Source: Thiohalobacter sp. IOR34 (lineage in GTDB: Bacteria > Pseudomonadota > Gammaproteobacteria > Thiohalobacterales > Thiohalobacteraceae). Taken from it: a stretch of 64,000 bases of DNA. A model generated the notes under the pieces. The model was not told the origin of the DNA. It saw only the letters and a list, made by a program, of their open reading frames with translations, and did no database searches. This document shows positions 2,771-57,000 of the stretch, one piece after another. A program made the position numbers and the translations under genes. Location: positions 1,647,438 to 1,711,437 of the forward strand of contig NZ_CP128988.1 of NCBI RefSeq assembly GCF_030406045.1, in the 5' to 3' direction. Within the stretch, counting starts at the first letter, position 1, and each line of letters begins with the position of its first letter.

Positions 2771-3846
2771 CGCGTTTCCTGCCGACTGCCGGGCAGGCCG
2801 GCGATGAAAACGTCCTCGAAGATGCGCGCCCCCGGCCCCTCCGCCTCGTCCTCAGGGGGCAGCAGCTCGTCCGGCCGGTTGCGCAGGATGTCGAGGAACA
2901 CGGCCGTGAGTTCCGGCTCGCGCCAGCCCTTGCTCACTTCCTCCTCGAAGGCGGCGATGATGCGCGCCAGCGGCCAGCGTTCCTTGTAGGGACGCTCGTG
3001 CGCCAGGGCATCATAGATGTCCACCAGTTGGAAGATGCGCGCCAGCAGCGGAATCTCCTCCCCCTTCAGGCCATCAGGGTAGCCGCTGCCATCCCAGCGT
3101 TCGTGATGGCTGCGGATGATGGGCACGGTGAGGCGCATGCTCTTCAGGCTGCTGCACAACTGGGCACCGATCACGGTGTGCTGGCGCATCACCTCCCATT
3201 CCTCGCCGCTCAGCGGCCCTGCCTTGAGCAGAATGGCATCGGGCACACCGAGCTTGCCGATATCGTGCAGGACCCCGCCACGGCGCAGCGCCAGCAGCTC
3301 CTCATCGGCCACCCCGAGGGTCTCGCCGAAGACCACCGCGGCATGGGCCAGGCGGGAGCAATGGTCGCCGGTATGGGTGTCCTTGGCCTCGACCATGCGG
3401 GCCAGGGTGAACAACAACGACTCCGCGCTATCGAGCTGGTCGGTGAGCCGCTTCTGGGTTATGGCGGCATTGACCCGCGCCATCAGCTCCAGCGGATTGT
3501 AGGGCTTGCGAATGAAATCGTTGGCACCGGCCCGCAGGCTGCGCGCCAGCTCGACGTGATCGTTACTGGCCGTGACCATGATGATCGGCAACAGGGACAT
3601 TCCCAACTCGTTGCGAATCCTGCGGCACAGCTCGTCACCATCCATGCCCGGCATGCGCTTGTCCAGCAGGACGACGTCGAAATCCTCTTCGCGGAGCCGG
3701 TCCAGTGCCTCGAAGGCATCCTTCGCCTCGCGAACCAGATACTCTGCCCCGGAGAGGATCTCCTTCTCCAGCGAACGGTGACTTTCCTCGTCGTCGACGA
3801 TCAATACCCGCTGCACATGCTTTCCGTTGCCGATTCCCTGGATCAC
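2767..3846 (-). CDS. Response regulator with receiver and HD-GYP domains (c-di-GMP phosphodiesterase)
   Basis: Cytoplasmic response regulator predicted to hydrolyse cyclic di-GMP. The receiver domain (about 12-130) carries acidic DDE (18-20) and the phospho-acceptor Asp62 in LLDKRMPGMDG. The HD-GYP domain (about 145-335) shows HTGDHCSRLAH, HDIGKLGVPD and GSGYPDGLKGEEIP, so the catalytic signature is complete. The start is GTG at 3846 with GAGG about nine bases upstream. It lies 22 bases after the chemoreceptor gene and overlaps the peroxidase gene by four bases. The partner kinase is not evident here; the truncated sensor downstream is one candidate. Confidence 0.93.
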   Translation of the reverse strand: MIQGIGNGKHVQRVLIVDDEESHRSLEKEILSGAEYLVREAKDAFEALDRLREEDFDVVLLDKRMPGMDGDELCRRIRNELGMSLLPIIMVTASNDHVELARSLRAGANDFIRKPYNPLELMARVNAAITQKRLTDQLDSAESLLFTLARMVEAKDTHTGDHCSRLAHAAVVFGETLGVADEELLALRRGGVLHDIGKLGVPDAILLKAGPLSGEEWEVMRQHTVIGAQLCSSLKSMRLTVPIIRSHHERWDGSGYPDGLKGEEIPLLARIFQLVDIYDALAHERPYKERWPLARIIAAFEEEVSKGWREPELTAVFLDILRNRPDELLPPEDEAEGPGARIFEDVFIAGLPGSRQETR

Positions 3847-3868
3847 AGCTTTTACCTCGCCTCTGTCC

Positions 3869-5446
3869 TCAACACCCGAACTGCTCGATCATCAATTTCA
3901 ACCGGTTGGTTTCCGTTGCCAGGCCGGCGCTGTTCCGCGCACTCTCCCGTGCCCGCCCGGCGTTCTGTTCCGCCACCTGGCTGATGTTCACCACATTGCG
4001 GTTGATCTCCTCGGATACGGCGCTCTGTTCCTCGGCGGCAGCCGCGATCTGGGCGGTCATGTCAGTGATGGTACTGATGTCGCGCCGCAGCGAATCGAGC
4101 AGATCTCCCGCCGCAGCGACTTCCTCAAGCCCGGCCTGGGCGCTCTCCCGGCTGTCGCTCATGACCGAGGCGGCCTCGGTCACTGTCGTCTCCAGGCGTT
4201 CGATAACCGCCTTGATCTCCTCGGTTGAACAGCGCGTTCGTCCGGCAAGCGTCCGCACTTCATCCGCCACCACGGCAAAGCCGCGGCCCTGTTCACCCGC
4301 CCTCGCTGCCTCGATGGCCGCATTCAGGGCCAGCAGGTTGGTCTGTTCGGCGATGCCCTGGATGACATCGACCACCGAGCCGATCTTCTCGGTATCGGCG
4401 ACCAGCCGGCGGATCACCGCCACCGCCGCCTCCACCTCCCCGGCCAGGCGTCCCATGCCAGCGGCACTGCGCTCGATGGCAGCCTGGCAGGCGCCCGTGT
4501 CACGGTCGGCCTGCTCGGTCGCTGCGGCGGTATTGACCGCATTGCCGGCCACCTCCTGTACCGTTGCGGCCATCTCGTGCATGGCCGAGGCAAGCTGGTC
4601 GATCTCGGACTGCTGCTGCTGTACCGATGCATCGGTCTGCTCGGCGACTGCGGCAACCTCCCCGGTTATCCCCTCCAGCTGCCCGGCGGCATCGCCGATC
4701 CGCCACACCACGGTGCGCATCTGGGCCTGCAGGGCATGGATGGCCAGCTGGAGATCCCCCAGCTCGTCACGTCGCCCGGTGTAGACCTGGCGGGCCACCG
4801 GATTGTGGAACAGCTCCCTGGCCTTCTGCGCCGCCCGACGCCAGGGGCGGGACAGCCAGTCGGCAGCCAACAGGCTGGCCGCCAAGCCGACGCCGGCCGC
4901 CAGCGCCAGGGCCGTCCCCCCGCCTCCCGCCAGGCTGCTGGCTGCCAGCACCGGCATCAGTACCCCCACTTGGGCCAGGAACAGCTTCCAACGCATCCCG
5001 CCTGGCAACTTCCCGGCCCAGCGCCGCCACCCGCTCTGGCCACCGTTCAGGGCACGATACAAATGTTCGGCGCGTTCCACCAGATCCGGCTCCGGCTTGA
5101 CACGCACGGACTGGTAGCCCGTCACCCTGCCGTCTTCGAAGATCGGCGTGACATAGGCATCGACCCAGTAATGGTCCCCGTTCTTGGCCCGATTCTTGAC
5201 GATCCCCATCCAGGACTTGCCTGCCTTGAGATCATCCCAGAGGTTGGCAAAGGCCGCCGGCGGCATATCCGGATGGCGCACCACATTGTGATTCCTGCCG
5301 ATCAGCTCTTCCCGGGAGAAACCGCAAACCTCGACGAAGTCTTCATTAGCATAGTCAATGATTCCCTTGAGATTCGTCGTCGATACGATGTGGATGTCTG
5401 CTGAATAGCTTCTTTCAACACCCGTTACCGGAAAATTCTTTTTCAT
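3869..5446 (-). CDS. Aer-like PAS-containing methyl-accepting chemotaxis protein
   Basis: Energy or redox taxis receptor. The 525-residue product starts with a PAS domain of Aer type (about 15-125): motifs [39 protein letters not shown]. In Aer this domain binds FAD. Hydrophobic segments around 150-190 form a membrane hairpin, followed by a HAMP-like linker and a long signalling coil whose tip reads [20 protein letters not shown]. There is no C-terminal CheR-binding pentapeptide; the protein ends QFGC. The ATG at 5446 has AGAGG seven bases upstream; the longer open frame extending to 5995 is an out-of-context extension. Second gene of the signalling run, 68 bases after the HTH-receiver gene. 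Confidence 0.92.
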
Positions 5447-5514: not shown

Positions 5515-6093
5515 TTATCCAGGCCCGGCCAACCCCATTTCCTTCAACAGCAGATCCCTGTCGAGCGGCTTGGACAGGCAGGCATCGGCACCCGACGCCC
5601 GTGCCCAGCGCACGTTCTCCGGCGTGTGATAGCCGGTCATGGTGATGACGCGGACAGCCTCGCCGCCATTCCCTTCCTTGATCTGGCGGCACACACTGAA
5701 GCCATCCATGCCGGGCATCATGAGATCCAGCAACACGATCTGGGGCCTGAATTCGATCAGCTTGCGACCCGCTTCGAAACCGTCGAAGGCCGACTCGGTG
5801 AGCAGCGGCTCCGGCAGGCTGGCCAGCCACTCCAGCAGGAAACCCACCAGCTGGCGGTCGTCGTCCACCACCAGCACCCGAGTCCCGCCGCCGACACCCT
5901 CCTGCGCCCGGCGCAGCCGCTCGACCTCCGCGCGGGGAAAGCGGCGATGTCCGCCAGGGGTGGTGACGAAGGACAGCTTGCCCTGCGCCGCCCAATGGCG
6001 GACAGTGACCGGGGAGACGTGCAGCAGGCTGGCCACCTGATGGGGGCTCAGGTAGTCCTCGGTGGGCGGCTTGTCGGTGTCGTCAGGGGCCAT
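5515..6093 (-). CDS. MerR-like/excisionase-type HTH fused to a receiver domain
   Basis: DNA-binding response regulator of 192 residues with reversed domain order. The N-terminal HTH of the MerR/helix_turn_helix_17 type (about 14-65) shows [19 protein letters not shown] and [15 protein letters not shown] receiver domain follows (about 70-185) with VVDDD, the acceptor Asp in [13 protein letters not shown], and the conserved Thr (ITMTGY) and Lys (LSKPL). The ATG at 6093 has AGAGG upstream. A run of 9-base repeats lies immediately upstream (6117-6162), suggesting autoregulation. First gene of the signalling run and its likely transcriptional controller (inference). Confidence 0.88.
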
Positions 6094-6116
6094 CAGGGGT
6101 CGCCTCTGTGAAAACC

Positions 6117-6162
6117 CGCTATATCGATAATAGCGGATTTATCGGATTTAGCGATTTTATCG
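6117..6162 (-). promoter_or_regulatory. Phased 9-bp repeats, putative operator/promoter of the signalling operon
   Basis: Read on the minus strand, this AT-rich patch is five near-identical 9-base units in a row: CGATAAAAT, CGCTAAATC, CGATAAATC, CGCTATTAT, CGATATAG(CG), alternating CGAT and CGCT heads. TATTAT within the fourth unit could be a -10 box; no good -35 is visible, as expected for an activator-dependent promoter. It ends 23 bases before the start codon of the HTH-receiver gene. MerR-like regulators commonly bind their own promoters; the assignment here is inference. Confidence 0.45.
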
Positions 6163-6180
6163 TCAGACCAGCGGGATGCT

Positions 6181-6434
6181 TTAGCCAGGATATTGCACGA
6201 AGAATTCGAGTTTCAGGGCGAATCTGGCCAAGCAGTCTGTTCGATCGCCCGCCGAAGCATGGCCGTAGCTAGGGTTCAAGGGGGATCGGACAAAATGCGG
6301 CGCCAGATTTGCTCTGAACTCGAACAGGCACAAACTGCAACAGGGCACAATCGCTCGCATAGGGAATTACCGCCTTGATAAATAAGGGAATAATTACGCA
6401 TTCAAGGCCGCCTTCGTGCAATATGCGGGCTAGA
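6181..6434. repeat. R1 MITE-like element, degenerate full-length copy
   Basis: About 254 bp, bounded by TAGCCAGGATATTGC at the left and GCAATATGCGGGCTA at the right, which form imperfect terminal inverted repeats flanked by TA. The interior (GAATTCGAGTTTCAGGGCG, CATGGCCGTAGC, GGTTCAAGGGGGATCGG) matches the reverse complement of the R1 copies at 35495 and 48859 with many changes. No coding capacity for a transposase. Confidence 0.75.
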
Positions 6435-6444
6435 CCCACCCGGG

Positions 6445-6513
6445 ATCGCGGCCTGGAGGCCGCTCCTACGGGGCATTGCGGCACCATGGTGGGAGCGGCC
6501 TCCAGGCCGCGAT
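6445..6513. repeat. R3 REP-like hairpin (copy 1)
   Basis: Two arms, ATCGCGGCCTGGAGGCCGC and its inverted partner GCGGCCTCCAGGCCGCGAT, separated by about 30 bases. Other copies lie at 12891-12963 and 24317-24385. Each arm also has a small internal GGCCTGGAGGCC palindrome. Confidence 0.8.
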
Positions 6514-6538
6514 AGGCGTGATGTTAACAGGCCCCAGG

Positions 6539-6635
6539 AGTCTGCCGGATTCAGACGATCGTAGCGAGCAGGGTGGGAGATTCGGGCCGCTCTCCCAGCC
6601 GCGCAGCAGATCAGCCCTGAGTCCGACAGGCTGCT
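6539..6635. repeat. R2 palindromic element, internally deleted copy
   Basis: Begins AGTCTGCCGGATTCAG and ends CTGAGTCCGACAGGCTGCT. Compared with the ~165-bp copies at 12712 and 24399 it lacks roughly 65 bp of the centre. Its right end shares the TA dinucleotide with the next R1 element. Confidence 0.7.
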
Positions 6636-47418: not shown

Positions 47419-47703
47419 TATTAACCCGGCAACCAAATAGGTTGTGTTCAGGGCTTCAGGCCTGTTCCGGAACAAGGCGCGGCCCGCCGGCAAGGGTCGC
47501 TCTCCTTGCCAAGGACCGCAACGCCGTAGCGGGACAGGCCTGAAGCCCCGGTCATTATGATTCAACAGGTCCGGCCGCCGGGTAGCCGTCTGCGGACGGC
47601 GTTATCGAACCTTGCCGTAGGAATGCTACGGCGGCGTTTCGATGCCTTGCCGCAGACGGCTACCCGGCGGCTGAACACAACCTATTTGGTTGCCGGGTTA
47701 ATA
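47419..47703. repeat. E element, copy E3 (285 bp, three-stem palindrome)
   Basis: Outer arms 47419-47451 and 47671-47703 (TATTAACCCGGCAACC...) are perfectly complementary over 33 bases. Module 1 stem 47452-47469 with 47530-47547 has one G-U pair; its core is CGGAACAAGGCG ... CAACGCCGTAGCGGG with an inner GGCAAGG/CCTTGCC hairpin. Module 2 arms 47574-47595 and 47650-47671 (GCCGCCGGGTAGCCG...) pair perfectly over 22 bases, with inner GCCGTAG/CTACGGC. It fills the gap between the exported-protein gene and galE. Confidence 0.85.
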
Positions 47704-47847
47704 ACTTACGACCAGCGGCCATTCTATGCCGCGCCCCCGTCCACTGCAATCGGCCACCGCCGCTGGTATGCTGGAAACCGAATGAAAGCTCTGGCGGCGG
47801 TGGCCGCTACAACAAGACATTTCGAGAACCTCATGAGGAGAGAGCGC

Positions 47848-48849
47848 ATGGAACAGGGGGCCATCCTGGTCACGGGCGGCGCCGGCTATATCGGCAGCCA
47901 CGTGGTACGACAACTGACCGCGGCGGGGGAACGGGTGGTGGTGCTCGACAACCTGTCGACCGGCTTCGCCGAGGCGGTGGGCAACGCCGAGCTGGTGGTC
48001 GGTGACACCGGTGACCAGGCCCTGGTCTCGCGCCTGCTCGCCAGCCACGGCATCGACTCGGTGCTGCACTTCGCGGCGCATACCGTGGTGCCGGAGTCGG
48101 TCAGCAACCCCCTCAAGTACTACGGCAACAACACCTGCCACACCCGCAACCTGCTGGCCTGCTGCCAGGAGGCCGGGGTGCGGCACTTCATCTTCTCCTC
48201 CACCGCTGCGGTGTACGGCATCCCCGAGGGGGATGCCTGTACCGAGGACAGCCCCAATGCGCCGATCAACGCCTATGGCACCTCCAAGCTGATGAGCGAA
48301 TGGATGCTGCGCGACCTGTCGGCCGCCAGCGGCCTGCGTCACGTGGCGCTGCGCTACTTCAACGTCGCCGGCAGCAGTCCGGACGGCAGCATCGGCCAGT
48401 CGACGCCCAGGGCCACGCTGCTGATCAAGGTCGCCTGCGAGGTGGCCACCGGCCGGCGCGAGAAGCTGATGATCTTCGGCACCGACTACCCGACGCCGGA
48501 CGGCACCGGGGTGCGCGACTACATCCACGTCGAGGATCTGGCCGATGCCCACCTCAAGGCCCTGGACTACCTGCGCGGCGGCGGCGAGTCGGTAACCCTC
48601 AACTGCGGCTATGGCCACGGCTACAGCGTGCGCGAGGTGGTCGATGCCGTCGAGCGGGTGGCCGGTCACAGGCTCAATGTCGAGGAAGCGCCACGCCGGC
48701 CGGGCGATCCGCCGATCCTCATCGCCCGCGCCGACCGCGCCCGCAGCCTGCTCGGCTGGGAACCGAAATACGACGACCTGGACTTCATCGTCAGGACCTC
48801 CCTGGAGTGGGAGAAGAAGCTCGCCGCCGGCGAGGTCTACGGCGCCTGA
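47848..48849 (+). CDS. galE: UDP-glucose 4-epimerase
   Basis: Interconverts UDP-glucose and UDP-galactose for polysaccharide synthesis. 333 residues of the extended SDR family: NAD site TGGAGYIGSH, catalytic SSTAAVYG and YGTSK, LRYFNVAGSSPDGSIGQ and RDYIHVEDLADAH. The ATG at 47848 follows GGAGAG; an ATG five codons upstream is less likely. First gene of the polysaccharide-related region. Confidence 0.95.
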   Translation: MEQGAILVTGGAGYIGSHVVRQLTAAGERVVVLDNLSTGFAEAVGNAELVVGDTGDQALVSRLLASHGIDSVLHFAAHTVVPESVSNPLKYYGNNTCHTRNLLACCQEAGVRHFIFSSTAAVYGIPEGDACTEDSPNAPINAYGTSKLMSEWMLRDLSAASGLRHVALRYFNVAGSSPDGSIGQSTPRATLLIKVACEVATGRREKLMIFGTDYPTPDGTGVRDYIHVEDLADAHLKALDYLRGGGESVTLNCGYGHGYSVREVVDAVERVAGHRLNVEEAPRRPGDPPILIARADRARSLLGWEPKYDDLDFIVRTSLEWEKKLAAGEVYGA

Positions 48850-48858
48850 GCGGCCTTA

Positions 48859-49109
48859 GCCCGGATATTGCACCAAGGCGGCCCCTATAATCGGAGTGCA
48901 GACTGACATGCAAGGCCGGGAGGCTCGCAAATGGCTCCTCACGGCGGGGTACAGTTTGCGCCTATTCGATTTCAGGACGCATCTGGCTGCGCATCCTGGC
49001 CGATCGCCCTTGAACCCTGGCTACGGCCATGCTTCTGCGGGCGATCGGCCAGGCTGCTTTGCCAGCTCCGCCCTGAGCATCGAATCCTTGGTGCAATATC
49101 CGGGTTAGC
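48859..49109. repeat. R1 MITE-like element, best-preserved copy
   Basis: About 250 bp, ends TAGCCCGGATATTGCACCAAGG-type (48859 on) and CCTTGGTGCAATATCCGGGT (to 49108), inverted over 20 bases with one difference and bounded by TA on both sides. It lies between galE and the convergent nucleotidyltransferase gene, whose stop it touches. Confidence 0.85.
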
Positions 49110-50193
49110 CCGCCTCGCCACGCAGCGCCTTGCGCGCCAGATGCGGCAGCAGCAGGGGCAGCGGCATGCGCAGATAGTGACCGCGGACATAGAGCAGCCA
49201 GCGGGCCAGGCCGCTCCAGCGGTCCCTGCAGCTGTGATGTTCCGGCAGCAGGGCGCGATCGAACAAACTGTCGCGCAACCCCAGACCGAGGGGTGCCGCC
49301 TTCTCCAGCTGCAGCCATACCGCGGCCGGCACCGTCACATCCAGCAGCCGCTGCTGGTAGCGCAGGGCGTAATACAGCGGGCGGATCAGGCCGAGCAGGC
49401 GCGCGCGTTCCAGCAGACGTTCCCAGAAATCCGCCTCGCCGGCAGTGAAGTGTTCCAGCAGCGCCTGCATGTCCAGCAGATCGCGCAGCCCCTGGCCGAA
49501 CTCTCCGTCGTTGAACAGGTGGACCGCGCTGTGCAGCAGCATATCGACCGGCTGCAGGACGCGAAGCTCCACCCCGTGCGCCGCCGCACCCAGCGCCAGC
49601 CGCCGCGATCCCTCCCAGAGTGCCGCCACCGCCACCGGCCGGCGTGCCGTGTCCGGCACGATGTTGTGATGGACATCGAGCAGGGTGCCGCGGCGGGCAT
49701 GCTGCAGCGGCGGCAGTTCGTGCATCCAGCTGCGGTAGTAACGCTGGTCATAGGGGTCGGAATGGTTGCTGACATAGCCGGCGAAGAAGAGCGCGCGCTC
49801 CACGGCGTCCAGCGACTCGCGCGGCACCAGGATGTCGACATCGGAGAACAGGCGCCCACGGGCGGCCGGCAGCCCGGCCATCAGATAGGCCGTGCCCTTG
49901 AGCAGCATGACCGGGATGTCGAGGCCGGCCAGACCGAGCAGGATACGATCGACCTCCCAGCGGATGACATGTGCATGGTGCTCCGCCGCGGCCCGTCCCC
50001 AGTCGAGGTGACGCCGTGCCGCGGCGGGTATCTCGACATCCCGCGCCTGCCCGGCGAAGAGATCGGCGAGCCGCGCCAGCAGACCGGCGCGCCGACCCTG
50101 GCGGATCAGCAGTTCCCACTGCCCCGGCTCGGCTTCGGCCATACGTGCCGGTTCCTTCAGCACCTCGAGCAGCAGCGGCGGCGCGATCCTCAT
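49105..50193 (-). CDS. Nucleotidyltransferase-family protein (NTP_transf_5) of an HPr-rel-A cassette
   Basis: 362 residues. The nucleotidyltransferase signature is ARGRLFSDVDILVP, following LKGTAYLMAG; ELPPLQHARRGTLLDVHHNI and VDMLLHSAVHLFNDGEF are typical of this family, often seen beside lasso-peptide and exopolysaccharide genes. Substrate unknown. Last of four co-directed genes; ATG at 50193 overlaps the kinase stop. It ends within the terminus of the adjacent R1 element. Confidence 0.85.
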   Translation of the reverse strand: MRIAPPLLLEVLKEPARMAEAEPGQWELLIRQGRRAGLLARLADLFAGQARDVEIPAAARRHLDWGRAAAEHHAHVIRWEVDRILLGLAGLDIPVMLLKGTAYLMAGLPAARGRLFSDVDILVPRESLDAVERALFFAGYVSNHSDPYDQRYYRSWMHELPPLQHARRGTLLDVHHNIVPDTARRPVAVAALWEGSRRLALGAAAHGVELRVLQPVDMLLHSAVHLFNDGEFGQGLRDLLDMQALLEHFTAGEADFWERLLERARLLGLIRPLYYALRYQQRLLDVTVPAAVWLQLEKAAPLGLGLRDSLFDRALLPEHHSCRDRWSGLARWLLYVRGHYLRMPLPLLLPHLARKALRGEAG

Positions 50194-51119
50194 GCCCGTG
50201 CCTCCAGCGCCCCATCGGCGATCAGGCTGTCGAAGGCCACCACCGCCTCGTCCAGGCATCCGTAGCCGAAATCGAGACAGTCAACGGAATCGATCAATGC
50301 CTTCGCCCGTTCGAAACCCGTGCCACCGTGCAGGGCGAAGTTGAAGGCGTTGTCGATCAGATGCAGCAGGGTTCGTGCCCGGGAACGCGGCTGGAAGCGG
50401 GCCGGCGCCCCCTCAAGGTAGCGGGGGACCACCACGAAGGCGGGCCGGGCCGGCTCGGCCATGCGCCGTACGCTGTCGCGCGGTGGCTGCAGATGGGCCA
50501 CCGTACCCTTCAGCGTGTCACGGCAGGGCTCGCTGAGCCGGCAGTCGGGGGCAAAGCGGCGAATGACATCGATGGATTCGTTCTTCAGACTGACCGGACG
50601 GGGCACCGGATCGATTCGACCGTCGGAGAGACGCAGCAGGGTCAGTTCGTCGGAGAGAAGCCGCCAGCCCCGTTGCACCAGGGCGGCACAGAGGGTGCTC
50701 TTGCCGGCACCCGGGGGGCCGGGCAGGATCACTGCCTGCCCCTCGCGTTCGATCACTGCTGCATGCAGGACCAGATGGGTCGCCGTGTGCTGGGCCATGC
50801 ACCAGTTGAGACCCCATTCCAGTGAAGGATAGGCCTGGCTGCGTGGCAAGGGCTTGAAGGGCGCATGGCCATCGAACAGGAAACGCACCTGGGGCCGCAG
50901 CCAGCGGCGAGGCCCCCTGGGCGCGCTGACCGCCACCGGAAAATCCACCCAGTCGTCTTCGCCAAGCAAGGGGTAGTCGACATAGAGCGCCGTCAGGGTC
51001 TGCGCCAGCTCCGGCAGTTCACTGTGCAGGCGGACGCCGAACGGCCCGATCGCCAGGGCGAGCCCCTCGCGGCGCAACCGGTGCTCGAGATCGACCGGGT
51101 TGAGATCGGAGAGCCTCAT
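50190..51119 (-). CDS. HprK-related kinase A
   Basis: 309 residues. Shares the P-loop core of HPr Ser kinase: LPGPPGAGKSTL (132-143) and LLSDELTLL (Asp acting on the acceptor), with an unrelated N-terminal domain (1-110). Similar kinases phosphorylate the C-terminal Ser of some lasso peptides. It is flanked by four-base overlaps with the PqqD-like gene (upstream) and the nucleotidyltransferase gene (downstream), so all three are translationally coupled. No HPr substrate is present in the window. Confidence 0.88.
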   Translation of the reverse strand: MRLSDLNPVDLEHRLRREGLALAIGPFGVRLHSELPELAQTLTALYVDYPLLGEDDWVDFPVAVSAPRGPRRWLRPQVRFLFDGHAPFKPLPRSQAYPSLEWGLNWCMAQHTATHLVLHAAVIEREGQAVILPGPPGAGKSTLCAALVQRGWRLLSDELTLLRLSDGRIDPVPRPVSLKNESIDVIRRFAPDCRLSEPCRDTLKGTVAHLQPPRDSVRRMAEPARPAFVVVPRYLEGAPARFQPRSRARTLLHLIDNAFNFALHGGTGFERAKALIDSVDCLDFGYGCLDEAVVAFDSLIADGALEARA

Positions 51120-51436
51120 GGCACGGGCCGGATCAGGGCATTCTGCTCGAACTTCCAGAGCACCTCGTCGACGTATTCCGCAAGGTTGAAATCCGCCTCG
51201 AACTCGAAGCGTTCCCGCAGGCGCTGCACCAGCTGCCCACCACTCAGGGTCTCCTCGCGAAGCATCTGCAGCAGCGTTCCGGGAATCAGCTCGAACAGGT
51301 GGGTATCACCGGCCAGCTCGTGGTAGCAGACCCACTCGTCACCGTCGTGAAAGATGCGCAAGGGTATGTCCACCGCTGTCCAGCGGTCGAAGCAATCGCT
51401 CCCCGGGACAGCGCCGGCATGCGGCCTGGACGACAT
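51116..51436 (-). CDS. PqqD-like peptide chaperone of the HPr-rel-A system
   Basis: 106 residues. PqqD/RRE winged-helix fold: HELAGDTHLFELIPGTLLQM, ETLSGGQLVQRL and EADFNLAEYVDEVLWKFEQN. Such domains bind a leader peptide and present it to modifying enzymes. The ATG at 51436 has GAGGTG upstream; only 18 bases separate it from the Tat-exported protein gene, whose product is the natural candidate partner. Confidence 0.85.
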   Translation of the reverse strand: MSSRPHAGAVPGSDCFDRWTAVDIPLRIFHDGDEWVCYHELAGDTHLFELIPGTLLQMLREETLSGGQLVQRLRERFEFEADFNLAEYVDEVLWKFEQNALIRPVP

Positions 51437-51454
51437 GCCTGCACCTCGACCCGG

Positions 51455-52102
51455 TTATTTGCCCCCACCGCTATTGTTGGCACAACCGGGACCGCTTCCT
51501 CCGCTGTCACCGGGATCGAAGCCCAGCGGACAAGAACGCTCGTTGAGCAGGGCAAAGGTGTTCTTCAGCTTCTCGACGTCGGACATGTAGTGGTCGGTGT
51601 AGAGATCGATCACGTCCTGGTCGGTGTAGCCGAAATTGAGGCCGCCGGGATTCATGCGGTTGTAGGCACCGTTGAGCAGGGCCGCCACCGTGTGCCGGGC
51701 GAGGGCATTGTAGTTGCCGCCCTTCAGGCACAGGGCATCGATCAAGGTGAGGCCCGCCGGCATACCCGGGAAGGCGGGCAGAACATCGGTCCAGAACGTC
51801 TTGGGATCGGTGGGGCTGTAGGGGGACATCCAGCTCCCGAAGTGCTGCTGCTGTCGCCAGTAACCCGGGGTACAGCCTTCACAGGTCTCCGTCGGTCCCG
51901 AGAGGTTGCCGGACATCATGCCTGACAGGGTGCATCTGGCCCCTGCCAGTGCCGGACGGCTGGCCACGGTGAGCATCACCGGTGCCGTCACCAGGGCCGA
52001 CTTGACGAAACGACGGCGGCTGCCGGCCGGCCCCTCGGTTGCAGGATCGCTGTCTTGATCGCGGTGTTTCGGCTGCTGGTCGGGTTTCTTCTCGTCCGTC
52101 AT
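51455..52102 (-). CDS. Tat-exported protein with CTPGYW motif, candidate substrate of the HPr-rel-A cassette
   Basis: 215 residues. A hydrophilic N-terminal extension (1-27) precedes the Tat motif SRRRFVKSALVTAPVMLTVA, cleavage near Ala54. The mature protein has Cys57, Cys74 and Cys77, the CEGCTPGYWRQQ motif (as CTPGYWK in many exported surface proteins), and a Gly/Ser-rich tail GDSGGSGPGCANNSGGGK. Tat export means it folds, and could be modified, in the cytoplasm first. First gene of the cassette. A minus-strand -10-like TATACT lies at 52217-52212; 52103-52386 otherwise shows no gene. Confidence 0.8.
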   Translation of the reverse strand: MTDEKKPDQQPKHRDQDSDPATEGPAGSRRRFVKSALVTAPVMLTVASRPALAGARCTLSGMMSGNLSGPTETCEGCTPGYWRQQQHFGSWMSPYSPTDPKTFWTDVLPAFPGMPAGLTLIDALCLKGGNYNALARHTVAALLNGAYNRMNPGGLNFGYTDQDVIDLYTDHYMSDVEKLKNTFALLNERSCPLGFDPGDSGGSGPGCANNSGGGK

Positions 52103-52386: not shown

Positions 52387-53169
52387 TCAAGGCAAGGCAG
52401 ACTCCAGCAGGCGACGGGCATGGGCGATGGGAATGGCATAGGCGATGCCGCTGGGGTGGCTCAGCGCCGATTCCTTGGACGCCTTGACGAAAACCATGTT
52501 GAGGATGCCCACCACCTCGCCGCTGTCCGGCGAATAGAGGGGACTGCCGCTGTTGCCCGGATAGGCGGTGCCGTCGAGCTGGAAGATGCGGAAGGGATGA
52601 CGCAGGCGGCGGATCACCGTCGGCGAGAGCTGGCGCGAGGCCAGTGCCGGCAGGGCAATGGGCACGATGGCGGCCAGCATGGCGCGGTGGGTGGCCGGAT
52701 AGAGTCCCAGCGCAGAACCCAGCGGAAAACCGGTGAACAGGAATTCCTCACCCTCGCGGACCCGGTCCGAGTCGCCGAGGCGGGCCGCCGGCTGGGGACT
52801 GCCGCCGAATTCCAGCAGCGCCAGGTCGTGCTCCTTGTCCCTGGCCACCACCCGCGCCTGGCGCACGTCCGCCTCGCTGCCGCTGCCGATGAACACCGCC
52901 AGGTATTCCAGGCCCTTCTCGTTCAGCGACTTCGACACCACATGGGCATTGGTCAGCACATGGCGCCCGTCGCCGACCACAAAACCGCTGCCAAGCAGCA
53001 GCGCCGGAGGGCGGCGGGTCTTCTCCACGGTCCCGACCCCGACCACACTGGCCTTCAGCCGGGCAACCGTTTCCGGCACACCGCCGATGGCAGGCCCGGC
53101 CAGCAGCCACGCCAGCAGCGCCAGCCAGAAGATCCCGCTCCTGTTCTTTCCCGAGGCTCGATGTGACAT
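52387..53169 (-). CDS. Exported trypsin-like (S1C) serine protease
   Basis: 260 residues. Signal peptide (about 12-29). Catalytic triad His76 (LTNAHVV), Asp115 (HDLALLEFG) and Ser207 (YPGNSGSPLY). No PDZ domain, so smaller than DegP. The true start is ATG at 53169; the frame open to 53850 is antisense to the neighbouring gene. GGAAGG directly abuts the ATG and GGGGG lies 11 bases upstream. Divergent from the beta-propeller operon. Substrates could be surface or exported proteins encoded nearby. Confidence 0.88.
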   Translation of the reverse strand: MSHRASGKNRSGIFWLALLAWLLAGPAIGGVPETVARLKASVVGVGTVEKTRRPPALLLGSGFVVGDGRHVLTNAHVVSKSLNEKGLEYLAVFIGSGSEADVRQARVVARDKEHDLALLEFGGSPQPAARLGDSDRVREGEEFLFTGFPLGSALGLYPATHRAMLAAIVPIALPALASRQLSPTVIRRLRHPFRIFQLDGTAYPGNSGSPLYSPDSGEVVGILNMVFVKASKESALSHPSGIAYAIPIAHARRLLESALP

Positions 53170-53300
53170 CCTTCCATCATACCCCCAAGCAGCGCCCGGC
53201 CGCGCATCCGGCAGCGCTGAAACAACAACGGGGTGGCCCCCCGCCCGAGCGGTGATAGACTGGTGCCCTTGCAGTGACACGTCTTCGAGGTGCCCTCCAA

Positions 53301-54452
53301 ATGTCATGGAAGAAGCCGCTGCCGGTCCTGCTGCTGATGCTGGCCTGCGGCCGGCCCGGCACCACCCCGGCGGCCACGGCGGCACCGGACTATGCCGCCC
53401 TCCCCGCCAACCGCTGGGTGGTGATCCATACCGAAACCGGCCGCTGGCGACGCCAGGAACATGCCGGTGCCGCCTACGACAGCCATCGCGGCACCCTCCT
53501 GCTGTTCGGTTCCAACACCCATGGCAAGAACTGGGACAACAGCGTGCGCGAATTCGACCCGCAGCGGCTGCGCTGGACCCGGCACTATCCGCCCTCGCCG
53601 CGCGACAGCTACCGTCTCGACGCCGCCGGCCATCCGGTGGCCGGACCCGCGGACAATCCGCGCCCCTGGGCCATGCACAGCTACGACGGCCTGGTCTACG
53701 ATCCCGGGAGCGACAGCCTGATCGTCGCCGCCGCGGCCAACCATCACCCGCTACGGCGCCGCTTCGAGATCCGCCGCCAGCCGGTATGGCGCTACGACCT
53801 GACCAGCCACCGCTGGCAGCCCTTCGACCGCCACCAGGGCAAGATGCCAACCTTCTTCGACGCAGCGACGGCCTACGACAGTTGGCGCCGGCTTCCGCTG
53901 CTCTACAAGTTCGGCATCTGGGAACTCGACCGGGGCAGCGAACAGTGGCGCAAGGCGACCGGCAAGCACCACCACAACAGCCACTTCAACCTGGTCTACG
54001 ACAGCCTGCACCAGGTGTTCGCCGCCTTCGGCAGCGCGCGTCTGACCAACAGCGTCTGGCTCTATCACCCGGGCAAGGCCGCGGGCGAGGCCGGCCGCTG
54101 GGAAGAACGCCAACCCGGCGGCGACCCCTGCCCGCCGGACCAGCACATCCCGGTCGCCTTCCATCCCGAACAGGGCGTGTTCGTGCTGGTGGTGGACGAC
54201 AACCAGGTCTACCGCCGGCCCAACGGCCGGCTGCGCCTGCGGAGCAAGGCGAAGAGCAGCGGCACCTACGTCTATGACCTCGACAGCAACCGTTACCGGC
54301 GCCTGCCGCAAGCCGACCTGCCGGCCCAGGGCATGAACTACATGCTGGTCTACGCCAGCCGGCAGAAGGTGCTGCTGCTGGTGACCGGCGACTGGCGGCG
54401 TCCGCCCAGCGTGCGCGCCCTGCGCCTCGACCTGGGAGCCCTGCCGGAATGA
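53301..54452 (+). CDS. Exported kelch-like beta-propeller protein
   Basis: 383 residues. Signal sequence (about 7-20) ending in Ala-Cys, so possibly a lipoprotein, although the lipobox (MLAC) is weak. Repeated blades with GAAYDSHRGTLLLFGSNTHG, SYDGLVYDPGSDSLIVAA, NLVYDSLHQVFAAFGSAR and TYVYDLDSNRYRRLP. Function unknown; a binding or scaffolding role at the cell surface is plausible. The ATG at 53301 has GAGGTG upstream; nine residues further upstream are unlikely. Overlaps the next gene by four bases. Confidence 0.8.
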   Translation: MSWKKPLPVLLLMLACGRPGTTPAATAAPDYAALPANRWVVIHTETGRWRRQEHAGAAYDSHRGTLLLFGSNTHGKNWDNSVREFDPQRLRWTRHYPPSPRDSYRLDAAGHPVAGPADNPRPWAMHSYDGLVYDPGSDSLIVAAAANHHPLRRRFEIRRQPVWRYDLTSHRWQPFDRHQGKMPTFFDAATAYDSWRRLPLLYKFGIWELDRGSEQWRKATGKHHHNSHFNLVYDSLHQVFAAFGSARLTNSVWLYHPGKAAGEAGRWEERQPGGDPCPPDQHIPVAFHPEQGVFVLVVDDNQVYRRPNGRLRLRSKAKSSGTYVYDLDSNRYRRLPQADLPAQGMNYMLVYASRQKVLLLVTGDWRRPPSVRALRLDLGALPE

Positions 54453-55651
54453 GACGCCTGTTCTGGATCCTCCTGTTCACGGCCCTCCTCCCCCGGACCC
54501 TGACGGCAACAGTCGATAACGAGCGCTGGACGGTCGAGCCCTTCACCGATGCCCTCGGGGGTGGCCCCGCCACCGGGCCGGTCGAACAGGCCGGCGAGGG
54601 CGCCTTCCTGCTCTGTGAAAACGGCCGCGACCAGCTGTTCCTGATCAACGGCCAGTTCGTCGACATCGTGGTCGAGGGACAGCGCTACCACCTGGCCGGG
54701 ACCGGGCATCCGGGAATGCGCGATGGGCCGGCGCCTCTGGCCGAGTTCCGTTTCGGCTTTGCCGGCCACCTCGGTGCCCATGACATCGCCTGCGCCCCCG
54801 ACGGGACCCTGTTCGTGTTCGACGACGGCAATGCGCGGGTACGGCGCATCCGCCAGACGAACGGTCACTGGCAGGTCGACACCTGGGTCGGCGGCGGCCA
54901 GATGCGCCTGGCACCGGGCCAGGCGGCACCACCCGGGCAGGTCCGCCTGCCCAACACCACGGGCATCGCCGTCGCCGGCGACGGCAGCCTCTGGCTCGGC
55001 AGCTTCACCGGCTATTACCGGGTCGACCCCGAAGGCCGGCAGATCCGCTTCGTCGCCCGCTGGCCGATCGAGCTGCGCAAGGGCCGCACCCTGCACGTGG
55101 TCATGGGCCGTCCGGCAACCGATGGCGGCGTCTATTTTCTCAGCCGTTCACCGGACGTGGTGATCCGCGTCGACCCCGACGGCCAGGCCAGGCATCTCGC
55201 GGGACGCATCATCCAGGGCAGAAAACCGATGAACATCGGCGACGGCGAACCGCTTGCAAGCTATTTCGACACGCCTTCCAGCCTTGCCGTAGACCCCAAC
55301 GGCGAGGCCCTCTATCTATCGGGTGGCGACGAATACGACATCCGCCGCGTCCCTGCCGACGGCCATGGCAGTACCGCCACCCTCGCCCAGAACGGCCGCT
55401 GGCAGCGGGCTCGCCTGCACCCCAACCGCAGCCGCGGCGCCGCCCTTTACGACCCGGGCCTGCAGGGCCGGCTCAAGCCGGACGGTCCCCTCGGCGACCT
55501 GATGTCCTGCCACCTGCCCGGCTACGACCGACTGGGGCGGCTGTACAGTTTTCTCTATCCCTGGCGCGGGACCACCCAGTATCTGGCGGGGAAGGGGCTA
55601 CTGGGGGGGCGTCTCTATCGGCTGCGCCGGCTCGAAGCGGATGCGCCATGA
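54449..55651 (+). CDS. Exported NHL-type beta-propeller protein
   Basis: 400 residues, signal peptide about 1-19. NHL-like blades: HDIACAPDGTLFVFDDGNAR, NTTGIAVAGDGSLWLGSFTG, PSSLAVDPNGEALYLSGGDE; HLAGTGHPGMRDGPAPLAEF is a typical NHL segment. Function unknown. ATG overlaps the preceding stop; its own stop overlaps the next ATG, so the three propeller genes are tightly coupled. Confidence 0.82.
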   Translation: MRRLFWILLFTALLPRTLTATVDNERWTVEPFTDALGGGPATGPVEQAGEGAFLLCENGRDQLFLINGQFVDIVVEGQRYHLAGTGHPGMRDGPAPLAEFRFGFAGHLGAHDIACAPDGTLFVFDDGNARVRRIRQTNGHWQVDTWVGGGQMRLAPGQAAPPGQVRLPNTTGIAVAGDGSLWLGSFTGYYRVDPEGRQIRFVARWPIELRKGRTLHVVMGRPATDGGVYFLSRSPDVVIRVDPDGQARHLAGRIIQGRKPMNIGDGEPLASYFDTPSSLAVDPNGEALYLSGGDEYDIRRVPADGHGSTATLAQNGRWQRARLHPNRSRGAALYDPGLQGRLKPDGPLGDLMSCHLPGYDRLGRLYSFLYPWRGTTQYLAGKGLLGGRLYRLRRLEADAP

Positions 55652-57000
55652 GGAAGATGCTGCCCCTCCTCTTCGGGTTGCTGATGGCAACGGCCACCCT
55701 GGCCGGGCCGATCGAGAGCGGACCCTTGACCCCCCTCAGCGGCGATGCCGCAGGCGCCGGTTTCCACCCGGATGTCGCCGGCGACGGCCAGGGGGGGTTC
55801 CTGGTGGTCTGGCAGCGGGGCGGCAATTACCTGGGCACGGCCGGTGGCGATCTCTTCGCACGGCGAATCGAACTCGACGGCCGTCCCTCCGGGGCGGCAC
55901 CACGGGTCATCAGCCATGCCCCCGGAAGCCAGGAACGCCCTCGCATCGCCTTCGCCCATGGCCTCTATCTGGTGGTCTGGCAGGATCTGCGCAACGGCCG
56001 TGACTGGGACGTCTACGCAGCACGCATCACCCCCGAGGGGCGCAATCTCGATCCGCAGGGCATCCGCATTGCCGGCGGACCCGACAACCAGGCGCTGCCG
56101 GTGGTGGCCGCGGCGAACAACGGCTTTCTGATCGTCTGGCAGGATCGTGCCGGCAGCCGTTTCTACCGCCTGGCCTGGGCGGGGGTGAACGGCAAGGGCC
56201 AGGTGAGGCCGGGGAAGATCCTCCGCTACCAGGGCCCGGACGCCGGGCTCTGGCAGGGCTACACGCCGGGCTGGGGTTACGGCAAGCTGCCCCTGGATAC
56301 CGACCGTCCAGCGAGCGGCGAACTGCACGGCGGCCAACCCGAGCTGAGCCGCAGCAAGGACGGCTGGACCCTCGCCTGGGTCGACGAGAGCAACTGGGCG
56401 CCCGGTAACCAGGGTGGCATCACCCGCCGCTTCGCCCGGCTGCGCGAGACCGGCGACGGACCCCGGGTCGAGGCCCTGCTGCGCCCGGAGAGCAACGCCA
56501 TCGGCCGCAGCGGTGGACACTTCGCGCGCGGCCATGGCCGGCTGCTCTATGCCGGCTGGGGGATCCTCAATCGCGGCGTCAGCGTCGCCACGGCGCTACT
56601 GCTGGAGGATGGCGGCCTGCAGCCGCTGGCCAACCCCAACCCGGAGCCCCCCCGTTTCGGTGCCGGCTGGAAGCCGGCGCGGGCAATCAGCCTGTTCCAG
56701 CCCGGCTTCGGCATCACCGGCAGCGTCGCCACCGCCCCCACCAGGAACGGCTTTCTGGTCGCCGCGGCCGGTGACCCGCGCCTGCCACCTCCACACCGGC
56801 TGCGGATCTATGCCAGCCGCCTGGATGCCGAGGGACGGCGCCTCGATCGTCACCCCGACTGGCCGATCCTGCACCAAGGGCAGAGCACACCGGCCAACCC
56901 GGCGCTGGCGGCCAGCGGCGACAGCCTGCTGCTGGCCTTCGAACAGGACGATGCCAGCGGCAGCCGCCGGATCTACGCCCGACGGCTGCGGATGAAGTAA
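55648..57000 (+). CDS. Exported beta-propeller-like protein with VVWQD repeats
   Basis: 450 residues, signal peptide about 1-19. Repeats of the form VAGDGQGGFLVVWQRG, FAHGLYLVVWQDLRNGRDWD, AANNGFLIVWQDRAGS and LSRSKDGWTLAWVDE are spaced at blade length. The family is found among exported bacterial proteins of unknown function. Nine bases separate it from the lyase-like gene. Confidence 0.8.
   Translation: MRKMLPLLFGLLMATATLAGPIESGPLTPLSGDAAGAGFHPDVAGDGQGGFLVVWQRGGNYLGTAGGDLFARRIELDGRPSGAAPRVISHAPGSQERPRIAFAHGLYLVVWQDLRNGRDWDVYAARITPEGRNLDPQGIRIAGGPDNQALPVVAAANNGFLIVWQDRAGSRFYRLAWAGVNGKGQVRPGKILRYQGPDAGLWQGYTPGWGYGKLPLDTDRPASGELHGGQPELSRSKDGWTLAWVDESNWAPGNQGGITRRFARLRETGDGPRVEALLRPESNAIGRSGGHFARGHGRLLYAGWGILNRGVSVATALLLEDGGLQPLANPNPEPPRFGAGWKPARAISLFQPGFGITGSVATAPTRNGFLVAAAGDPRLPPPHRLRIYASRLDAEGRRLDRHPDWPILHQGQSTPANPALAASGDSLLLAFEQDDASGSRRIYARRLRMK

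Follow-up and report, generated by a model that had tools for sequence, protein, structure and literature searches.

Several described systems join a discrete RiPP (ribosomally synthesized and post-translationally modified peptide) recognition element, or RRE, with an HprK-like kinase and a nucleotidyltransferase. The kinases of lasso peptide clusters depend on a His-Lys-Asp-Asp motif and phosphorylate the C-terminal Ser of lasso precursors, and for pseudomycoidin the nucleotidyltransferase PsmN is needed for the hexoses placed on the phosphorylated Ser (PMC9266682). In the linear polyphosphorylated peptide (LPP) system of Bacillota, an RRE, an HprK-like kinase and an NTP transferase serve one precursor, whose core Ser3, directly after the RRE-bound leader, receives up to four phosphates from the kinase (Popov et al. 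2026, PMC13381572). A related kinase and RRE are already catalogued in NCBIfam under the name 'HPr-rel-A system', with no substrate catalogued. Here we describe such a cassette in Thiohalobacter sp. IOR34, in a window of 64,000 nucleotides (the whole stretch of DNA that was analysed; contig NZ_CP128988.1, positions 1,647,438 to 1,711,437), where it is led by the gene of a protein with a twin-arginine translocation (Tat) signal. We consider it likely that the four genes form a dedicated pathway which modifies this protein before its export.

The four genes of the operon are all located on the reverse strand. The Tat-signal protein of 215 amino acids (51455-52102) is the proposed substrate, and it is followed by a PqqD-like RRE (51116-51436), an HprK-related kinase A (50190-51119) and a nucleotidyltransferase of the NTP_transf_5 family (49105-50193; PF14907, E 2.4e-52). 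The open reading frame (ORF) of the latter spans 49105-50259, and its start in the operon is the ATG at 50193. The gap between the stop of the Tat protein gene and the start of the RRE gene is 18 bases, and the other two junctions are 4-base ATGA overlaps. The initial annotation of this DNA had reported four tightly packed genes with 18-base or overlapping junctions, and its coordinates and families agreed with our check of the sequence and the ORFs. Both the kinase (TIGR04352, 388 bits, cut-off 200) and the RRE (TIGR04353, the HPr-rel-A system chaperone, 36.6 bits, cut-off 35; alignment A7) passed the curated NCBIfam cut-offs, by which the system belongs to HPr-rel-A; it would work like the LPP and lasso tailoring sets and is filed as neither. 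It shares the kinase and the RRE with TIGR04352/TIGR04353 and differs in the Tat protein, for which no substrate family was found there. The Tat-signal protein of the window had no family match in Pfam or NCBIfam, and the gene in its position is annotated as 'hypothetical protein' in RefSeq plasmid records. Our literature search found no direct record of the HPr-rel-A system and no paper naming it. A promoter scan gave no match, PADLOC gave no meaningful match to a defence system, and a phage origin was rejected since the kinase was without a match among phage records.

The likeness to LPP consists in a discrete RRE, an HprK-like kinase and an NTP transferase that accompany a single precursor, in the absence of a lasso cyclase from both, in the phosphorylated LPP Ser just after the leader, and in the frequent location of LPP clusters near polysaccharide genes. 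However, the LPP leader is not a Tat signal; it is cut by a dedicated SpI-like peptidase, the export is by an MsbA-like exporter and the products are peptides, whereas the precursor in the window is a Tat-signal protein of Pseudomonadota with a predicted folded domain and a leader that lacks the Y of YxxP. Neither an SpI-like leader peptidase nor an MsbA-like exporter is present among the four genes of the operon or their neighbours (a trypsin-like protease and galE), and the main text of PMC13381572 makes no mention of Tat or Proteobacteria. With paeninodin and pseudomycoidin the operon has in common the RRE (B1), the HprK-like kinase and the nucleotidyltransferase, which here too would act on Ser (PMC9266682), and the resemblance to phosphorylated lasso peptide tailoring sets pointed out in the initial annotation is sound. 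As for its remark that the lasso machinery is missing, the B2 leader peptidase (PF13471) was not found in the genome of the window and exceeded the cut-off in only one of 16 cassette genomes, and no macrolactam cyclase is encoded in the operon or the flanking genes, a genome-wide search for it not having been made. A lasso peptide identity was thus ruled out by the lack of a B2 peptidase in the genome, and the proposed substrate, being a Tat-signal protein, differs from lasso precursors as well.

The Tat signal of the window protein, read by eye, extends from S28 to A53 (SRRRFVK...ALA, 51944-52021, reverse strand) and comprises the twin arginines, a hydrophobic stretch and a signal peptidase site. 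To examine its conservation, we used an alignment (A2) of 31 sequences of the type represented by the window protein, hereafter class A, most of which are 20-40% identical to it. R30 is invariant and R29 nearly invariant, and TatC is encoded in the same genome. By these signal features the window protein is a predicted Tat substrate. Directly after the signal, all class A proteins in the alignment carry the invariant C57 and S64, and S60, N66 and S68 are nearly invariant (N144, further on, is invariant too); together they form the motif C57-TL-S60-GMM-S64-G-N66-L-S68 (51899-51934, reverse strand), or C-x-x-S-x3-S-G-N-x-S in general form. This class A motif was observed in 28 of 31 sequences, in comparison to 0.4 of 31 expected from shuffled sequences. 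In the AlphaFold2 prediction it is located in a less ordered linker (predicted local distance difference test, pLDDT, of 62-69) between the signal and the CTPGYW domain, residues 71-199 (51506-51892, reverse strand), which was predicted as helical with confidence (pLDDT about 90-97 for residues 71-190). S60 and S64 are presented here as candidate modified residues, judged from conservation in sequence. The Ser/Gly tail, singled out in the initial annotation, did not hold up as a target: relatives such as L024 lack it, and for this reason it is not likely to be functional.

The same annotation had also taken the CTPGYW protein as the likely cassette substrate. To see which feature is linked to the cassette, we compared the 80 best relatives, taken from named genomes, for domain, motif and cassette. 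Forty-eight were cassette-linked Tat proteins, all with the kinase next door and with the Ser motif (one of them, L217, was assigned by eye, because the script missed its partly masked domain, in which CTPSYW replaces CTPGYW), while the other 32 had the CTPGYW domain without a cassette and none of them carried the Ser motif. The matches of these 32 were mostly limited to the region from about residue 63-81 onward and lay inside larger secreted proteins of many phyla. Thus, CTPGYW was rejected as a cassette-specific feature, as many secreted proteins contain the domain with no cassette nearby, and it is the Ser motif that tracks the cassette. The part of the earlier claim that stands is that the Tat protein is a dedicated partner of the cassette and, judging from the restriction of its motif to genomes with the kinase, its probable substrate; CTPGYW as the defining feature does not. 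The domain itself, CTPGYW...AVAALLNA (L169, L172, L174, L180, L181, L188-L212), is widespread and secreted, and no Pfam or NCBIfam model describes it (L169 was compared with NCBIfam, the window copy with both). A fold search of the window copy against the PDB gave no match, and a PDB sequence search gave none of note.

Next to these relatives, we analyzed two samples, one of 369 genomes from the class, 41 of which have the kinase, and one of 398 from the phylum, where 61 have it, and read the surroundings of 98 kinase loci. The kinase is present in over 10% of the sampled genomes in class and phylum alike, and its carriers are spread over dozens of families. A Tat-signal protein adjoins the cassette in 91 of the 98 loci, nearly always directly before the RRE gene; 42 of these are class A homologues of the window protein and 49 belong to a second type, class B. 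In the taxonomic family of the window, all five HprK_rel_A loci show the Tat protein at this same position. Among the remaining seven loci, one is cut by a contig end and six have no Tat protein nearby, but five of the six genomes (G433, G445, G392, G484, G625) encode one elsewhere, in four cases with an RRE gene beside it, so that the pair of substrate and RRE stays together when the kinase is separate. A full-length match to the class A profile was found in 31 of 41 kinase genomes and in none of 328 kinase-free genomes of the class sample (Fisher 9e-37); the class B profile was found in 38 of 61 kinase genomes and in none of 337 kinase-free genomes of the phylum sample (2e-37). The profiles, like A2 and the class B alignment A8, were not selected by motif but were built from cassette-linked proteins. 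Hence the Tat family does not occur mostly without the cassette, and proteins with the motif were only found together with the kinase. Genome G304 has the cassette and, in addition, another class A protein that stands alone and carries the motif (L131). The locus L171 contains two class A Tat proteins (3416-4048 and 5902-6567), which suggests that a single cassette may act on several substrates.

Class B proteins have no CTPGYW and carry C-W-x-S-F near the C-terminus instead; the CTPGYW domain is thus missing from the Tat protein in half of all cassettes. In the motif-blind alignment A8 (n=20), P17, T21, C137, W138 and S140 are invariant; the proline and the threonine lie inside the hydrophobic region (h-region) of the Tat signal, and the context of C137-W138-x-S140 reads ...S-C-W-x-S-F. 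The Ser is present in all 49 class B proteins, 1-16 residues from the end, a count which is partly so by construction because the patterns that locate the site require Ser. The Cys is lost in three of the 49 and is replaced there by Ala or Ser, with the Ser kept. The class B motif was observed in 44 of 47 proteins, in comparison to 6 of 47 expected from shuffled sequences. The denominator common to both classes is a Tat signal and C-x-x-S, and the position of the class B candidate Ser near the C-terminus resembles that in lasso precursors. In L308, L310, L311, L312 and L313, the gene of the class B substrate and that of the RRE make up a unit of two genes apart from the kinase locus. The cassette of L302 is carried on a plasmid of Vibrio alfacsensis (NZ_CP140104), and its Tat protein keeps CSITSCMSGNAS and has no CTPGYW.

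Both enzymes retain their catalytic residues in the alignments. In the kinase, H119, the GxGxGKST with K140, D157 and E158 are invariant; the Walker A Lys, the catalytic His and the Asp are spaced identically to those of the solved HprK 1jb1, while the second Asp of HprK is replaced by Glu. In the tree of the 98 kinases, those of class A fall into a single supported clade (99/99) that also includes the contig-edge locus, thus the kinase and the substrate type change together. In the nucleotidyltransferase, K99, G100, D118, D120 and D173 are invariant, and its predicted structure (pLDDT 94) has MenT1 and ANT(2'')-Ia as the nearest folds. As for the leader, the window protein has P41-x3-T45 within the h-region of its signal (51968-51982), and PxhhT/S occurs in 22 of 39 class A and 35 of 44 class B proteins, the other Tat proteins in the loci being too few for a background of the PxxxT motif.

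Because of the parallel with LPP and pseudomycoidin, we propose the following mechanism. The PqqD-like RRE would recognize the Tat signal as it would the leader of a RiPP, probably through the conserved PxxxT[LV], and would keep the precursor in the cytoplasm; this binding is the least certain step. The HprK-related kinase A would then phosphorylate, perhaps repeatedly, a Ser of C-x-x-S-x3-S-G-N-x-S, either S60 or S64, and the nucleotidyltransferase would extend or cap the phosphate, a step by which a sugar could plausibly be added. The modified, folded protein would pass through Tat and be cleaved afterwards. Class B cassettes may follow an equivalent path, with the target Ser close to the C-terminus and a Tat protein that is different in other respects. 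In its general form, that in a widespread pathway of Pseudomonadota the Tat signal doubles as a RiPP leader, by which the RRE holds the precursor while a dedicated kinase and nucleotidyltransferase equip one Ser of a folded protein with a phosphate-based group, perhaps with a sugar, before Tat export, we regard the proposal as having about equal chances of being right and wrong.

Some observations weigh against modification of Ser before export. The leader motif [YW]xxPx[h] was found in none of 39 class A and none of 44 class B proteins; L300 has the kinase and the RRE, and no Tat protein was found for it; in the LPP system, no effect of LppN was detected (PMC13381572); the class labels behind the counts of 42 and 49 partly used the motif; and since GTDB genomes are related, the p-values and counts overstate independence. 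In addition, almost every member has a conserved Cys along with the Ser, which makes Cys chemistry possible. The Tat protein could then still be the substrate, but the modified residue would be the Cys of C-x-x-S, or another group would be involved; the kinase would make or activate a small molecule, which the nucleotidyltransferase would attach. We find this unlikely: the Cys is invariant in the 31 class A sequences and present in 46 of 49 class B proteins, but the class B Ser persists where the Cys is Ala or Ser, and direct phosphorylation of Ser is what related kinases carry out with these catalytic residues (PMC9266682, PMC13381572).

A different role for the leader is conceivable as well. 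TorD and DmsD are Tat proofreading chaperones. The proposed binding of a Tat signal before export is what the RRE would have in common with them, although it belongs to an unrelated family. If the RRE were such a chaperone, the kinase and the nucleotidyltransferase might only govern release and leave no lasting mark on the exported protein, and both the P and T that do not vary within the Tat signal of class B and the pairing of substrate and RRE where the kinase is elsewhere would fit. However, this leaves unexplained why the invariant Ser motifs are not part of the signal and in class B even lie at the other end of the protein, and why they are missing from cassette-free relatives, and we hold it to be improbable. 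It is slightly less probable still that the Tat protein has nothing to do with the chemistry and is kept by synteny or co-regulation, with the enzymes modifying a small molecule or a cell-surface glycan. This could account for galE and other sugar genes near some cassettes, but two unrelated types of Tat protein adjoin the cassette across many families, the motif proteins are absent from kinase-free genomes and the kinase clade matches the substrate class. Finally, classical HprK-like regulation, in which the kinase would phosphorylate an HPr-type protein and its neighbours would be accidental, has the fold and catalytic residues common to HprK in its favour but is very hard to reconcile with a cassette that contains no HPr, has a genetic context other than that of HprK, and has an RRE and a nucleotidyltransferase as constant partners, as in RiPP tailoring sets.

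With the dedicated modification before export as the preferred explanation, the HPr-rel-A system, named but functionally blank, gains a probable substrate family, residues that are candidates for modification and a mechanism that can be tested. The initial annotation had reached neither class B and the motifs with their invariant Ser nor the LPP system in the literature. If true, the proposal would join RiPP leader recognition and Tat export, two separate fields, and bacteria would have a phosphorylation route dedicated to proteins that they export; the two natural substrate classes provide an internal control for the specificity of the kinase.

In the flanks of the operon, a trypsin/HtrA-like serine protease gene (52387-53265, reverse strand; PF13365, E 1e-25) is a frequent neighbour of uncertain role. 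A homologue of it was present at 19 of 43 cassette loci and at none of 32 control loci, and the protease could act on the exported protein. On the other side, galE (47557-48849, forward strand; TIGR01179, E 1.4e-135), whose ORF exceeds the GalE domain, is convergent to the operon and not a member of it. Of 43 cassettes, 12 have galE at a distance of up to about 7 kb, in comparison to none of the 32 control loci, and this enrichment fits a sugar step. An inverted repeat, TGGCCGATCGCCC / GGGCGATCGGCCA, lies at 48999-49055, between the end of the operon and galE. Beyond the protease gene, three forward-strand ORFs (53274-54452, 54449-55651 and 55648-57000) with 4-base overlaps have apparent secretion signals and repeat-rich sequence.

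Small Tat-leader peptides of ~60-107 amino acids (L122, L124-L130) carry YxAP[VA][VI][LM]TL in the h-region, matching the YxxPxVL of LPP; in this smaller group the motif is complete (Y-x-A-P-x-[VI]-[LM]-T-L). Several of them adjoin more distant HprK-like kinases and lasso-type PqqD proteins, and they are possibly a third, peptide-sized version of the system.

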